Positions 21,141-60,711 of a DNA stretch of 64,000 nucleotides are shown one piece after another. Source of the DNA: Myxococcaceae bacterium (GTDB lineage Bacteria; Myxococcota; Myxococcia; Myxococcales; Myxococcaceae); the NCBI GenBank assembly GCA_017881265.1, contig JADGRA010000020.1:1-64000 (forward strand), written 5' to 3'. The translations under genes were made by a program, and so were the position numbers. Every line of letters begins with the position of its first letter. Position 1 is the first letter of the stretch. The notes beneath the pieces were generated by a model. The model saw only the letters and a list, made by a program, of their open reading frames with translations, did no database searches and was not told where the DNA came from.

Positions 21141-22616
21141 ATGCTTCGACGCGTTTCAGTCGTCCTTTTGTCCGCCGGCGCGCTCGCGCTCGGCGCCTGT
21201 AGCAGCAGCACCACCCCTCCACCAGATGCTGGAGCGGCCGTCAGTTGCACCAGCAGCGTGCCGCCGGTTTGCACCGTCCCGGCGGGTGCGACCGAGTCCA
21301 GCATTTCCAGTGCCATCGCTGGCGCGGCGGCGGGGACCACCTTCAACTTCGCCGCAGGAACCTTCCCCTTCAAGAACACCATCACCGTGCCCGGCGTGGC
21401 CGGCCTCACCTTCAAGGGCGCGGGCATCGGCCAGACCATCCTCGAGTTCGCCGGCCAGACGGCCGGTTCGGGCGGCATCAGCGCCACCCTCGGCAACGCC
21501 GCCCTCCGGTTCGAGGGCTTCACCATCCAGAACACGCTGGGCGACGGCATCAAGGTGGAGAAGGCCACCGGCGTGGTGTTTTACCAGGTGCAGGTGCGCT
21601 GGCTGAACGCGGCGGACGGCGGTCCGAACTACCTGCGGCACGGCGGCTACGGCATCTACCCGGTGCAGTCGCAGAACGTGCTTGTCGACCACTGCGACAT
21701 CAGCGGCGCGCGCGACACGGGCGCCTACATTGGCCAGTCCTACACCATCGTCGTCAGCAACAACACCGTCCATGACAACGTGGCCGGCATCGAGATTGAG
21801 GCGTCGAGGAACGCGGACGTGCACGACAACGTGTCCACCAACAACAGCGGCGGCATCCTGGTGTTTGCGCTTCCCAACCTGCAGCCACCTCCGGATGCGG
21901 GCCAGCCGAACGACGCCACGAACTACGTGCGCGTGTACAACAACACCATCACGGCCAACAACACGCCGAACTTCGCCGACCCGTCGGGGTCGGTGGCGCA
22001 GGTGCCGGCAGGCAGCGGCATCGTCATGCTCGCCGCCAACTACGTCGAGGTCTTTGGCAACACCATCAGCAACAACGACACCCTGGCCGTCGCCAATGCC
22101 AGCTACCTGGTGCTCAACCCGAGCTTCAATCCGTTGGACCCGGCGCAGAACCCCACCGGACTCAATCCCTTCTCCAGCTGGGTCTACGTGCATGACAACA
22201 CGTTCTCGAACAACGGCGGGAACCCCCAGGGGAGTAACGTGTACAGCCCGGACGGCGGTTCCAACGGCCCCAACCAGCTCGGGGAACTCTTTCAGGCCCT
22301 CATCCTCTACGGCGCCTGGACATCGGCTCCGGACGTCATCTGGGACGGCATCGCGCCGCCCCCCTATGTAGCGCCCATCGGCGACGGGGACGCTGGCGTC
22401 CCTGCGAACCCGCTGACTTACTATTTTGCAAACAACCACAACGCGAACGTCACCGGGTCGGACTGGGTCAACGTCAATCTCCCGAAGGTCTACATTCCTG
22501 GGCCTCCGCCCAGCATCAACGTCAACGACCTGGCCTTCGACTTCTACCCGTTCCAGGTCACCAGCGCCCCGGCGGGTTTCCCGCTTCCGGCGGTGGACGC
22601 AGGCATTCTGCCTTGA
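21141..22616 (+). CDS. Lipoprotein with right-handed parallel beta-helix
   Basis: 491 residues. Lipobox LALGAC with Cys20 predicts a lipoprotein; GGGAGA lies seven bases before ATG 21141. The body is a series of beta-helix turns (FEGFTIQNT, VLVDHCDISGA, IVVSNNTVHDN, ADVHDNVSTNN, VRVYNNTITANN, VEVFGNTISNN, VYVHDNTFSNN), each rich in Asn. It matches the family known as TIGR03805 (from memory), whose members regularly sit next to a dihaem protein of unknown function. That partner follows here with a TTGA overlap. Beta-helix proteins often bind or cut polysaccharides, but no catalytic residues can be named. Confidence 0.85.
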   Translation: MLRRVSVVLLSAGALALGACSSSTTPPPDAGAAVSCTSSVPPVCTVPAGATESSISSAIAGAAAGTTFNFAAGTFPFKNTITVPGVAGLTFKGAGIGQTILEFAGQTAGSGGISATLGNAALRFEGFTIQNTLGDGIKVEKATGVVFYQVQVRWLNAADGGPNYLRHGGYGIYPVQSQNVLVDHCDISGARDTGAYIGQSYTIVVSNNTVHDNVAGIEIEASRNADVHDNVSTNNSGGILVFALPNLQPPPDAGQPNDATNYVRVYNNTITANNTPNFADPSGSVAQVPAGSGIVMLAANYVEVFGNTISNNDTLAVANASYLVLNPSFNPLDPAQNPTGLNPFSSWVYVHDNTFSNNGGNPQGSNVYSPDGGSNGPNQLGELFQALILYGAWTSAPDVIWDGIAPPPYVAPIGDGDAGVPANPLTYYFANNHNANVTGSDWVNVNLPKVYIPGPPPSINVNDLAFDFYPFQVTSAPAGFPLPAVDAGILP

Positions 22617-23692
22617 GAGGTGGGGGGGGACGGCTTCTGGGCTTAGGGCTCACGGCACTTGCTGCCGTGGGCTGCGGCGGTAGCAACTGCACACCCGACG
22701 CCGGGGGAGCGACGGCGTTCGCCACCCTCGACCAGTGGTGCCAGGTGAAGCTGGTGAACGGCGACATCGCGCCCGAATCCGGCGTCACCCCCTACAGCCT
22801 CAACACCCCCCTCTTCTCGGACTACGCCATCAAGCGCCGGACGGTGTGGATGCCGTCCGGCGTTTCTGCTGCCTACGACGACACCAACGTCCTCTCCTTT
22901 CCCGACGGGACCGTCCTCACCAAGTCCTTCGGCTTCGCCGACGACTTGCGCAAGACGCAGCCCACCATCACCTGGGTGGAGACGCGCGTCATCTGGAAGA
23001 CGGCCGGGGCCTGGCAGGCCATCACCTACAGGTGGGACAGCGCCCAGAAGACGGCCACCGCCAACCCGGGCGGTGAAGTGGTGCCGCTCTCCTTTATTGA
23101 TGCGAATGGCAACCCGGTGAGTGCCAATTACCTGGTGCCCTCCTCGCCTCAGTGCGCCCAGTGCCACAACAGCAGCGAGGTGCTTCAGCCCATCGGGCCC
23201 AAGGCCCGTAACCTCAATCGCGACAACGTTTACCCAGACGGCAACACCCAGAACCAACTGACGTACTGGACCGCCAAGGGCCTTTTGACTGGAGCGCCGG
23301 ACCCGTCGGCCGCCCCGAAGCTGGCGGTGTGGAACGACCCAAGTACGGGCACCCTCGAGCAGCGTGCGCGCGCCTACCTGGAAAGCAACTGCGCCCACTG
23401 CCACAGCCCAACCGGTGAGGCATACACGACCGGACTCTTCCTCTCGACGCTGGAGACGGACCCCTTTAGCTACGGCATCTGCAAGCACCCCGTGGCCGCC
23501 GGCCCCGGCGGCGGCGGTCGCCCCGTCGACATCTACCCGGGAAACCCGACGCTGTCCGTCATCCCCTTCCGGCTGGAATCCACGGAACCCTCCATCGCCA
23601 TGCCGCAGATTGGCCGAAGCGTGGTGGACACAGCGGGCCTTCAGCTGGTGACGGACTGGATTTCGTCGCTGACGGGCACCTGCGGCAGCTGA
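22613..23692 (+). CDS. Dihaem c-type cytochrome lipoprotein (SO2930/HNE_0200-like family)
   Basis: 359 residues starting at TTG 22613, overlapping the TGA of the beta-helix gene. Lipobox LAAVGC gives Cys21 as lipid anchor. Two haem c sites are visible: CAQCH (Cys181, Cys184, His185) and CAHCH (Cys260, Cys263, His264). The N-terminal half (SLNTPLFSDYAIKRRTVWMP, then FPDGTVLTKSF) is characteristic of this family, known from memory as TIGR03806. Such proteins pass electrons outside the cytoplasm, but no substrate is known for the pair. A TTG start is unusual but required by the signal peptide. Confidence 0.88.
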   Translation: MRGGGGRLLGLGLTALAAVGCGGSNCTPDAGGATAFATLDQWCQVKLVNGDIAPESGVTPYSLNTPLFSDYAIKRRTVWMPSGVSAAYDDTNVLSFPDGTVLTKSFGFADDLRKTQPTITWVETRVIWKTAGAWQAITYRWDSAQKTATANPGGEVVPLSFIDANGNPVSANYLVPSSPQCAQCHNSSEVLQPIGPKARNLNRDNVYPDGNTQNQLTYWTAKGLLTGAPDPSAAPKLAVWNDPSTGTLEQRARAYLESNCAHCHSPTGEAYTTGLFLSTLETDPFSYGICKHPVAAGPGGGGRPVDIYPGNPTLSVIPFRLESTEPSIAMPQIGRSVVDTAGLQLVTDWISSLTGTCGS

Positions 23693-26328: not shown

Positions 26329-27612
26329 TTAGGGGCCTTCGGCGCGCGTGGCGCTGGCCGCGCGGGCCAGGGCGTCGAGAAAGCCCTCCCCCAACAGCTG
26401 GCGCTCTGCCTCGCCCTGCCCGTGCGCCAGGTGCTGCGGCGTCTCCACGTAGCCCAGGTACCCATCCACTAGGCTGACCACCCGGCGCGCCCCGGCCGCC
26501 TCCTCCAGCACCCGGCCGGCCGCGGCGGAGGGCTCAGCCGGCACGCCCAACAGGACGAGGGGGCCGACGCGCAACAGGGCCACCGTCGCCTCGGCCGGTG
26601 CCGCGGCGCAGAGGGTGTTGTTGGCGAGGGGCCGCAATAGGCGGGGGACGAGACGGCCGGCGTCGGGCCCCGGAAGCCCGACGCTGACGCGGGCCAGCCC
26701 CAGGCCGCTGGCCGCCGCCGACAGCGGGACGGCGTCGGTGGCCGAGGCCAGCCCAGCCACGAAGGCGTCCAACCGGCCGGCCGGCTCGCCGTGCAGTGCC
26801 GGGGAGGCGTTTCCCACTGCGCCCTGCAGCACCAGCGTCACCCCCTGCCCCCGGGCGTCCTCCATCTCGGCCAGCCGGCCCGGCCAGTCCGGGTCGAGCC
26901 CGGCCGGGGGCCGCGGCACCAGCGTCGGGTGGCAGGCAAAGACGAGGAGCTGCGCCACCGGGCCCGCATTGCCGAGGAAGACGAGGCGCGACAGCCGCGC
27001 GTCGACGTCCGAGGGCGCCTCGCGCGCCCCCACCAACTCCGGCACGGAGGACTCGCCGAAGCGCAGCGATACCGGCTGCCGTGCCTGGTCGGCGTCACGC
27101 AGCGCCCCGGCGGCGGCGGCCACCACCGCCTCGCGCGCACGGGCATGCAAAAGGCCCGTCCCCGCCAGCTGGGCCACGGGGTTTTTGGCGTAGCCACCCG
27201 GCCCGGAGTGGGTGTGCGTCACCGCCACCCAGACGTCCGTTAGCCCCAGGGCCCGCGCGGCCTCGCGGATGGCGCCGTCGAGGGAAGCGTCCCCCACCAA
27301 CACGTCCAGCGTCACCACACCCACCCGCACCCGGCCCGCCTCCAGCACCAGCGCCCGCGCGCGGACGGGAAAGGCCACGGCCTGGGCGGTGGCCCGGGGG
27401 ACGCCGTAGCCGGCCACGGCCGACGGCAGGGGCACGGCCAGCGGGCGGCTGGCCGCCCCTGCCAACAGGGGCCCTTCCGCGTGGGCGCGTAGCTGCAGCT
27501 GGGGCGCGCCCACCGGCCGGCTGGCGCACACGTCCCAGCTGGCGGCCAGCACCAGCAGCAGCGCAAACCCCAGGACGCCCAGGATGAGGGTGACGCGCCC
27601 TGGACGGCTCAC
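26329..27612 (-). CDS. Neutral/alkaline ceramidase N-terminal-domain-like protein
   Basis: 427 residues from GTG 27612, overlapping the stop of the upstream SDR gene (GTGA). One N-terminal membrane helix or uncleaved signal (about 8-28) places it outside the cytoplasm. VTHTHSGPGG resembles the zinc- and nucleophile-bearing HTHSGPGG of neutral ceramidases, HPT and QGAVGNASP match later ceramidase motifs. It is shorter than true neutral ceramidases (about 650-700) and lacks their C-terminal domain. It may cleave an amide such as a ceramide; the pairing with an SDR suggests sphingoid-like lipids (inference). Confidence 0.75.
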   Translation of the reverse strand: MSRPGRVTLILGVLGFALLLVLAASWDVCASRPVGAPQLQLRAHAEGPLLAGAASRPLAVPLPSAVAGYGVPRATAQAVAFPVRARALVLEAGRVRVGVVTLDVLVGDASLDGAIREAARALGLTDVWVAVTHTHSGPGGYAKNPVAQLAGTGLLHARAREAVVAAAAGALRDADQARQPVSLRFGESSVPELVGAREAPSDVDARLSRLVFLGNAGPVAQLLVFACHPTLVPRPPAGLDPDWPGRLAEMEDARGQGVTLVLQGAVGNASPALHGEPAGRLDAFVAGLASATDAVPLSAAASGLGLARVSVGLPGPDAGRLVPRLLRPLANNTLCAAAPAEATVALLRVGPLVLLGVPAEPSAAAGRVLEEAAGARRVVSLVDGYLGYVETPQHLAHGQGEAERQLLGEGFLDALARAASATRAEGP

Positions 27613-58869: not shown

Positions 58870-60711
58870 ATGAGCGCGACGCCTTTCCTCCTCACCCTGG
58901 CTCTCCTCAGCCAGGTGGACGCCGGGCCACCCCTGGCGGTGGACGTCCTGTCCGGCAGACACCCCATCAGCCCGGACATTTACGGGATGAACAGCTACAG
59001 CGTCACCGCCGCGGACGCTGCCTTCCACGCCGAGGTGCGGGTGCCCGTCACGCGCATGGGGGGAGATGCCGCCACCCGCTACAACTGGAAGGTGGACGCG
59101 AGCAACGCGGGTTTCGACTGGTACTTCATGGCCGGAAGCGGGGTGGCGACACCGGTGCCCAACGCGACCGCCGATGGCGTCATTGCCCTGGCGCGTACGT
59201 CGGGCGGCCGCGCGCTGCTCACCATCCCGATGGTGCCCTACATCGACAGCGTCAGCGCCTGGGACTGCAGCTACCCGCGCAGCCTGTTTCCGGACCAGCA
59301 GTCCTTCAACCCGTACGTCCACCCCAACGGCGACGATTGCGGCAACGGCGTGCGGACGGACGGGGGGAGCCCCATCCCGCTCAGCGAAGCCGAGATTCTG
59401 CGCATCCACATTCCCAACTCCACCGCGCTGGCCACCGAGTGGGTGGCCTACCTGGTGGCGCACTACGGCAGCGCCGCCGACGGCGGGGTGCGCTTCTACA
59501 ACCTGGACAACGAGCCGAGCGGCTGGGGGAACACCCACCGCGACATCCTCCCCAACGGCCGCGCTTACGCCGGAGATGGGGGGATTACCGAGCTCGGCAT
59601 CCAGTTCGCGACGGCGGTGAAGGCGGCCGACCCGACAGCCCTCATTCTCGGACCGTTGGACTTCGGCTACCCGGTGTACAGCGACGCCGCGGGCTACCTC
59701 GACGCGATGAAGCAGGCCGAGGCGGCGACTGGCCGGCGCCTCCTCGACTACCTGGACGAGCACTACTACCCCTCGTCCAACATTGGCGCCCTGGCCAACA
59801 CCACTGACCCGGGCAGCGCGGAGCTCCAGGCCCAGCGGCTCCGTTCGACGCGCTCGCTGTGGGACCCGACGTACAAGGACGAGAGCTGGATTGGGCAGTA
59901 CAACCCGCCCATCCAGCTCATCCCGTACTTCAAGCAGCTGATTTCCGCCCACTACCCGGGCACGCGCCTCGCCATCAGCGAGTACAACTGGGGCGGCACC
60001 CAGAGCATCAATGGGGCGCTGGCCGAGGCGGACGTGCTGGGCATTTTCGGCCGCGAGGGGCTGGACCTCGCCACCCTGTGGGGGCCTCCGGCCAGTACGG
60101 ACGCGGTGGCCTACGCCTTCCGCATCTACCGCAACTACGACGGCCAGGGCAGCAGCTACGGGGACACCTGGGTGAGCTCCACCAGCGGCGGCGCCAACAA
60201 CGCCGGGCAGGACGCGCTGGCTGTGTACGGGGCCCAGCGCACCTCCGACAGCGCCCTGACGGTGGTGGTGCTGAACAAGACGCTGGGGGACCTGACGACC
60301 GCCCTCTCGCTGTCCGGCTTCACGCCGGCGGCCTCGGCCCAGGTGTGGCGCTATGGCCCCGCCAACCTCTCCCAGGTGGTGCGGGAATCCGACGTCCCCA
60401 TCAGCAGCTCCGGCCTCACCGCCACCTTCCCGGCGAGCAGCATCACGCTCCTGGTGGTGGCCTCTGCTACGGCGACCGGCCCCTCGGACGCCGGCCCGAT
60501 GGACGGTGGCATGGTGGGCACGGGCGCGCCCGGTGGGACCGACGCTGGGGGGCCCCAAGGACTGCCCGGGACGGGCAGCGGGGTGCAAGGTCTCGGCTGC
60601 ACCAGTGCCCCGGGCAGCGGCGCGGGCTGGGGCGTCCTCGGCCTGCTCCTGCTCGCGGTCAGTCGTCCTCGCTGGAAAGCCGCACGCGCACGGTGTCCGC
60701 CTCCCGGCTGA
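58870..60711 (+). CDS. Secreted GH44 glycosidase with MYXO-CTERM-like tail
   Basis: 613 residues. Short signal peptide (PFLLTLALLSQVDAG), then a family-44 glycoside hydrolase: ISPDIYGMN, RMGGDAATRYNW, YFMAGSGV, acid/base Glu215 in YNLDNEPSGW, nucleophile Glu371 in AISEYNWGG. GH44 enzymes cut beta-1,4-glucans such as cellulose and xyloglucan. The end (Cys577, LLLLAV helix, Arg cluster) after a D-A-G rich linker is like the MYXO-CTERM sorting tail, which anchors proteins to the myxobacterial surface. GAGGAAA precedes ATG 58870. Its stop lies inside the end of the convergent DUF309 gene (53-base overlap). Confidence 0.9.
   Translation: MSATPFLLTLALLSQVDAGPPLAVDVLSGRHPISPDIYGMNSYSVTAADAAFHAEVRVPVTRMGGDAATRYNWKVDASNAGFDWYFMAGSGVATPVPNATADGVIALARTSGGRALLTIPMVPYIDSVSAWDCSYPRSLFPDQQSFNPYVHPNGDDCGNGVRTDGGSPIPLSEAEILRIHIPNSTALATEWVAYLVAHYGSAADGGVRFYNLDNEPSGWGNTHRDILPNGRAYAGDGGITELGIQFATAVKAADPTALILGPLDFGYPVYSDAAGYLDAMKQAEAATGRRLLDYLDEHYYPSSNIGALANTTDPGSAELQAQRLRSTRSLWDPTYKDESWIGQYNPPIQLIPYFKQLISAHYPGTRLAISEYNWGGTQSINGALAEADVLGIFGREGLDLATLWGPPASTDAVAYAFRIYRNYDGQGSSYGDTWVSSTSGGANNAGQDALAVYGAQRTSDSALTVVVLNKTLGDLTTALSLSGFTPAASAQVWRYGPANLSQVVRESDVPISSSGLTATFPASSITLLVVASATATGPSDAGPMDGGMVGTGAPGGTDAGGPQGLPGTGSGVQGLGCTSAPGSGAGWGVLGLLLLAVSRPRWKAARARCPPPG

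Follow-up and report, generated by a model that had tools for sequence, protein, structure and literature searches.

Families TIGR03805 and TIGR03806, which comprise a beta-helix protein and a c-type cytochrome, are already known as a pair and are catalogued without an assigned function. The Shewanella proteins SO2930 and SO2931 appear in a list of outer-membrane/extracellular cytochromes (PMC4837345), and SO2931 was among the genes deleted in the delta-omc-all strain (PMC5829830); no single-mutant phenotype of SO2930 or SO2931 was found in the literature. Right-handed beta-helices that act on polysaccharides include the AlgE enzymes, in which the catalytic residues are Tyr149, Asp152, His154 and Asp178 (PMC7385640).

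One haem domain of the cytochrome is compared below with cytochrome P460 and cytochrome c'-beta. A cytochrome P460 in the strict sense has a covalent haem-Lys bond and a ferrous Soret band at 460 nm. The P460/c'-beta fold was described in a 2025 review as one confined to two small families with a single haem, with Phe61 of McCP-beta equivalent to Lys70, Lys78 and Lys106 (PMC11928373). Here we describe a TIGR03805/TIGR03806 pair from a Myxococcaceae bacterium, in the window (the whole 64,000-nucleotide stretch of DNA that was analysed).

Results

The two genes in the window

The features of the locus are collected in Table 1. P0001 scored 290.4 bits against TIGR03805 (curated cut-off 141.5) and P0002 scored 366.3 bits against TIGR03806 (curated cut-off 313.3), so that both family names, as given in the first-pass annotation, were confirmed. 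The same annotation had described two lipoprotein genes overlapping by TTGA, with haem sites CAQCH and CAHCH in one product and an Asn-rich beta-helix in the other. The coordinates, the overlap and both haem sites were verified, and the Asn-rich description is fair, seven Asn residues (N213, N235, N268, N273, N277, N307 and N353) being invariant in 82 P0001 homologues. The lipoboxes, one closing each signal peptide, were read by eye, and lipoprotein status is claimed for the two window proteins only. The host genome (a 4.4 Mb draft) carries one TIGR03806 copy, and in the cytochrome tree the nearest relatives of P0002 are from Myxococcota.

The neighbours of the pair in the window are a peptide deformylase and an M1 aminopeptidase. 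Elsewhere in the window, a secreted-looking glycoside hydrolase family 44 protein is encoded at 58870-60711, and a protein partially matching the alkaline ceramidase N-terminal domain at 26329-27612. An Rfam search of the window gave zero matches.

Table 1. Features of the beta-helix/cytochrome locus, in window coordinates.
Feature	Position	Strand	Evidence
P0001, beta-helix lipoprotein, TIGR03805, 491 aa (start ATG at 21141, stop codon 22614-22616)	21141..22616	+	290 bits, AlphaFold, Foldseek
P0001 lipobox Cys20 (LALGAC)	21198..21200	+	by eye from translation
Conserved beta-helix face, residues 170-221 (Y170, Y173, D192, Y196, Q199, N213, E218, E220)	21648..21803	+	invariant, 82 sequences
P0002, dihaem c-type cytochrome lipoprotein, TIGR03806 / SO2930 family, 359 aa (start TTG at 22613, stop codon 23690-23692)	22613..23692	+	366 bits, AlphaFold
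TTGA 4-base overlap of P0002 TTG start and P0001 TGA stop	22613..22616	+	sequence
P0002 lipobox Cys21 (AAVGC)	22673..22675	+	by eye from translation
Putative beta-sheet haem domain of P460/c'-beta type, approximately residues 45-185, holding haem 1	22745..23167	+	hhalign; PF16694 sub-threshold
Lys104 in FPDGTVLTK, P460 cross-link position	22922..22924	+	invariant, 92/92; kept in distant subfamilies
Haem 1 attachment CAQCH (C181-H185)	23153..23167	+	invariant
Haem 2 attachment CAHCH (C260-H264)	23390..23404	+	cysteines and His invariant
Met330, presumed haem 2 sixth ligand, MP motif	23600..23602	+	invariant 92/92

Pairing across genomes

The TIGR03806 cut-off was exceeded in 48 of 144 relatives, as was the TIGR03805 cut-off, and both families were present in 47 of the 49 relatives having either one. 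In the two unpaired cases (G012:C802 and G003:C645) the contig breaks off at the match, on the side expected for the partner. One genome per species was also scanned; the 80 best loci returned span Bacteroidota, Pseudomonadota, Myxococcota, Acidobacteriota, Planctomycetota, Binatota, Hydrogenedentota and Balneolota. With one locus cut by a contig edge excluded, 72 of 79 loci had the beta-helix either fused to the cytochrome or encoded ahead of it on the same strand. The gap was at most 20 bases in 56 of 68 separate neighbouring pairs, as measured on the longest reading frames. Single-chain fusions of beta-helix and cytochrome were found at L092, L118 and L120, the first of which has a lipoprotein signal of its own as well as a Pro-rich linker. 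In a mirror-tree comparison over the 80 loci, the identities of the two families correlated with r = 0.84 (permutation maximum 0.16), a value that partly reflects species history. Because the arrangement recurs in most core family members and the identities correlate in this way, the pairing lies far beyond chance. The beta-helix/cytochrome pair is a true, well-supported unit, and the earlier claim of a recurring, coupled two-gene pair is upheld by co-occurrence, gene order, overlap and the three fusions.

Long frames at the g36 loci (L008, L009 and L014) were rejected as fusions; they are probably spurious high-GC extensions, since that DNA is also covered by a separate ORF for the beta-helix. 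Several loci depart from the usual layout. A tandem pair of TIGR03806 cytochrome genes follows a single beta-helix gene in Hydrogenedentota (L088:9950-12279), and in a Flavobacterium (L074:7464-10918) the pair members are parted by a secreted 397-aa protein that lacks any Pfam match. In Hyphomonadaceae-type genomes (L105:10942-11556, L116:10930-11523) there is a 4-base overlap between a further gene and the stop codon of the cytochrome; the product of that further gene, tested in L105, showed weak similarity to DUF1493.

The genes around the pair vary and are mostly unrelated housekeeping genes (RecG, DnaJ, DapB, def, pepN), so no pathway is indicated. A conserved third gene was also rejected: the sole recurring neighbour was a TonB-dependent receptor, which lies downstream of the pair in about ten Pseudomonadota loci. 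NosZ was present in 4 of 48 cytochrome-carrying relatives and absent from the host genome, and P0001 scored 27.4 bits against NosD (TIGR04247, cut-off 300). Since NosZ does not track the pair and the NosD score is far under its cut-off, a nitrous-oxide/NosD link was likewise rejected.

Exchange of the beta-helix for a sugar dehydrogenase

In L032, L033, L034, L047, L051 and L075 (744-1070 aa), a GSDH (PQQ sugar dehydrogenase) propeller precedes the TIGR03806-like domain. Two Chitinophaga-labelled loci (L056 and L059) have a separate GSDH gene 3' of the cytochrome, and no beta-helix was found within the stretch examined. In the cytochrome tree, L075, a GSDH fusion, and L120, a beta-helix fusion, group together as sisters (SH-aLRT 96), within the paired-form clade. 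Given the GSDH fusions and adjacency, and the swap of partners within one clade, the cytochrome is, as read from these gene arrangements, a redox module with exchangeable partners, serving either a quinoprotein or a beta-helix protein.

Other architectures were also seen. L036, L037, L038, L040, L041, L048 and L049 form a myxobacterial TIGR03806-like dihaem subfamily in which beta-helix and GSDH were absent from the stretch examined; in L037 and L041 the second haem site is of the CxxxCH type (CGVSCH), replacing CxxCH. Two longer proteins with four CxxCH motifs (L042:3471-6200, 909 aa; L046:3139-5949, 936 aa) hold a divergent TIGR03806-like core between further cytochrome c domains.

The cytochrome and its haem-1 domain

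The AlphaFold model of P0002 had a pLDDT of 92.7 and a pTM of 0.89. Neither P0002 nor P0001 alone had a match when solved structures were searched by sequence. Both CxxCH motifs and M330-P331 are invariant in 92 homologues, among which haem 1 has no conserved second (distal) His or Met. On this pattern, haem 2 looks like an ordinary class I His/Met c-haem, and haem 1 appears to have either an open site or unusual ligands. Residues K74, R76, K104, F106, E123, T124, R125, Y139, W141 and A148 are conserved throughout, including in distant subfamilies that have no beta-helix.

A Foldseek search of the P0002 model against the PDB gave no match at E below 0.18. The weak matches included cytochrome P460 (2je2) and cytochrome c'-beta (7ead, 6hih, 9hqt), with 2je2 and 7ead at ranks 4 and 6 (E 0.2-0.3, probability 0.2). 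When an alignment of 92 TIGR03806 sequences was compared by hhalign with 20 members of PF16694, the probability was 95.9% (97.7% in global mode) with a score of 64.8. The controls scored lower: the maximum over 40 column shuffles was 18.9, and the scores were 15.8 for the reversed profile and 21.1 for the beta-helix profile. The CxxCH motif lies outside the best-aligned columns, so the shared haem motif is not the source of the match; in the global alignment GW and CxxCH also fall in register. Three distant TIGR03806-like subfamilies compared with the P460 profile gave 92%, 94% and 66%. Pfam PF16694 was detected below threshold in 40 of the 92 homologues (best E 6e-5); P0002 itself fell short of the gathering score and was unlisted even at E 5. 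From these profile comparisons, the haem-1 domain very probably belongs, as a remote member, to the cytochrome P460/c'-beta superfamily.

The column of K104 is that of Phe61 in McCP-beta, located through the F61V mutant in the PDB alignments. The column of the NeP460 distal carboxylate (Glu96) falls on R125 in one alignment and on a gap in another. A cross-link between K104 and the haem is possible.

The beta-helix protein

The AlphaFold model of P0001 (pLDDT 87, pTM 0.89) has regular three-strand coils of about 22 residues each. Its best Foldseek matches were AlgE4 with a mannuronan trisaccharide, RbmB and PL6 lyases (E 2e-8 to 1e-4), and those at E below 1e-3 were mostly carbohydrate-acting proteins, AlgE4 first (2pyh, E 2.3e-8), which places P0001 in the parallel beta-helix fold. 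Y173, Y196 and E218 occupy equivalent positions of consecutive strands, with D192, Q199, N213 and E220 adjoining; judged from strand register and parity in the model, the conserved residues would lie on an outward PB1 face. By motif and spacing, in a provisional register, Tyr149, Asp152, His154 and Asp178 of AlgE correspond to Y170, Y173, V175 and Q199, so that the Tyr alone is kept. If the register is right, D152, H154 and D178 are replaced and the known AlgE chemistry would not be expected; AlgE epimerase chemistry is probably lost in P0001. The first-pass reading of a polysaccharide-type beta-helix is thus borne out for the fold, by the AlgE4, RbmB and PL6 matches, but the AlgE catalytic motif is seemingly gone.

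Discussion

Two points appear to be new, the P460 relation of haem 1 and the GSDH swap; neither was found in any of the open-licence papers searched on TIGR03805/03806, SO2930 and P460 fusions, which also held no functional study.

The explanation we favour, to which we give close to an even chance, is that the pair encodes one lipid-anchored two-subunit oxidoreductase complex at the envelope or surface, combining a P460-like haem, a haem that relays electrons and a beta-helix of saccharide type, and that this complex would form in the host. Haem 1 would sit in the beta-sheet domain resembling P460/c'-beta, its distal side open and with a charged lining (K104, presumably with E123 and R125 nearby), and may be catalytic or the first electron acceptor. 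Haem 2, as a class I His/Met c-haem, would hand electrons on. The beta-helix would be the substrate-side partner, its conserved groove most likely binding a saccharide, the presumed substrate, or another polymer, and it may present substrate to the cytochrome or dock with it. In favour of this explanation are the co-occurrence, gene order and fusions, the mirror-tree correlation, the P460 relation with its conserved residues, the GSDH exchange, the AlgE4, RbmB and PL6 matches and the TonB receptor in Pseudomonadota. Counting against it are the absence of any PDB match to the cytochrome model below E 0.18, the missing PF16694 hit in P0002, the placing of R125 in the distal carboxylate column by one alignment, and the mostly housekeeping neighbours. 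GSDH, moreover, oxidises sugars unaided, so the haems in the GSDH relatives may be mere acceptors.

Given the P460-like haem 1 and the sugar-dehydrogenase partners, a redox enzyme module is likelier than a bare electron wire. The annotation's idea of a surface redox system acting on a polymer is supported in part, by the coupling and the fold, but it had overlooked both of those features. A somewhat unlikely alternative is that the cytochrome is purely an electron acceptor whose haems relay from a partner dehydrogenase, with the beta-helix itself the catalytic subunit in the place of GSDH. The cytochrome domain does lie C-terminal to GSDH propellers, GSDH adjoins it in Chitinophaga-labelled genomes, and the partners are swapped within one clade. 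Against this, haem 1 has no conserved second ligand and lies in what would be a ligand-binding P460-like domain, and the beta-helix enzymes that we know of carry no redox cofactor.

It is improbable that the beta-helix is instead a scaffold or matrix anchor holding the cytochrome at exopolysaccharide or the surface, so that electrons could pass to metals, to electrodes or to other proteins acting as partners. The fold resembles that of proteins acting on alginate and biofilm polysaccharides, SO2931 was deleted in delta-omc-all (PMC5829830), and the Shewanella proteins are listed as outer-membrane/extracellular (PMC4837345); this listing is also the one thin link to the annotation's suggestion of extracellular electron transfer. 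However, there are only two haems, many carriers are not known for metal reduction, and a wire has no need of the charged residues that are conserved in the haem-1 domain. We consider it very unlikely that the pair handles nitrogen oxides or hydroxylamine in the manner of cytochromes P460 and c'-beta, the beta-helix serving as a platform like NosD. The P460 relation, the retained cross-link Lys and a weak similarity of the beta-helix to NosD are in keeping with such a role, but the scarcity of NosZ among cytochrome carriers, its absence from the host and the NosD score argue against it, as would the required carboxylate column if it is Arg, which is uncertain.

The favoured complex matters since the pair is spread over Bacteroidota, Pseudomonadota, Myxococcota, Acidobacteriota, Planctomycetota and others with its function unassigned, and placing haem 1 in the P460/c'-beta superfamily suggests a specific chemistry that is open to test through the spectrum, a cross-link, the binding of ligands and K104. 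The relation would extend a fold reviewed as limited to two small single-haem families (PMC11928373), and the exchange with sugar dehydrogenases points to sugar or polymer oxidation at the cell surface. A broader proposal, which we regard as unlikely, is that of a widespread, unrecognised surface enzyme class, in which a Lys-modified P460-type haem and a relay haem act on a carbohydrate or polymer held by the beta-helix, with quinoprotein propellers as the alternative partner; if true, P460 chemistry extends beyond the nitrogen cycle.

Compared with known systems, P0002 is unlike the multihaem outer-membrane cytochromes MtrC and OmcA, which have about ten CxxCH motifs where P0002 has just two. 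P0001 has the right-handed beta-helix of RbmB, the PL6 lyases and the AlgE4 A-module. Its Y170-G-x-x-P174 resembles the YG-x-D-P-H loop of AlgE, and the K138-Y170 spacing equals that of K117-Y149 in AlgE. GSDH proteins with a C-terminal cytochrome have a TIGR03806-like domain in common with P0002; they differ in having a beta-propeller quinoprotein, absent from the window, where the pair has a beta-helix. P0002 differs from cytochromes P460 and c'-beta in falling below the Pfam threshold, in its second, class I c-haem, in its beta-helix or GSDH partner, in an additional hairpin before the haem, and in having charged E123/R125 and no clearly placed distal carboxylate. In common with them it has the strand order R-x-V-Y, FPxGTxxxK, next strand, GW and then CxxCH, the invariant Lys at the cross-link position, and a haem 1 with no conserved distal His or Met. 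As a TIGR03805/TIGR03806 pair, the window shares gene order and overlap with its relatives and shows no departure from the family.
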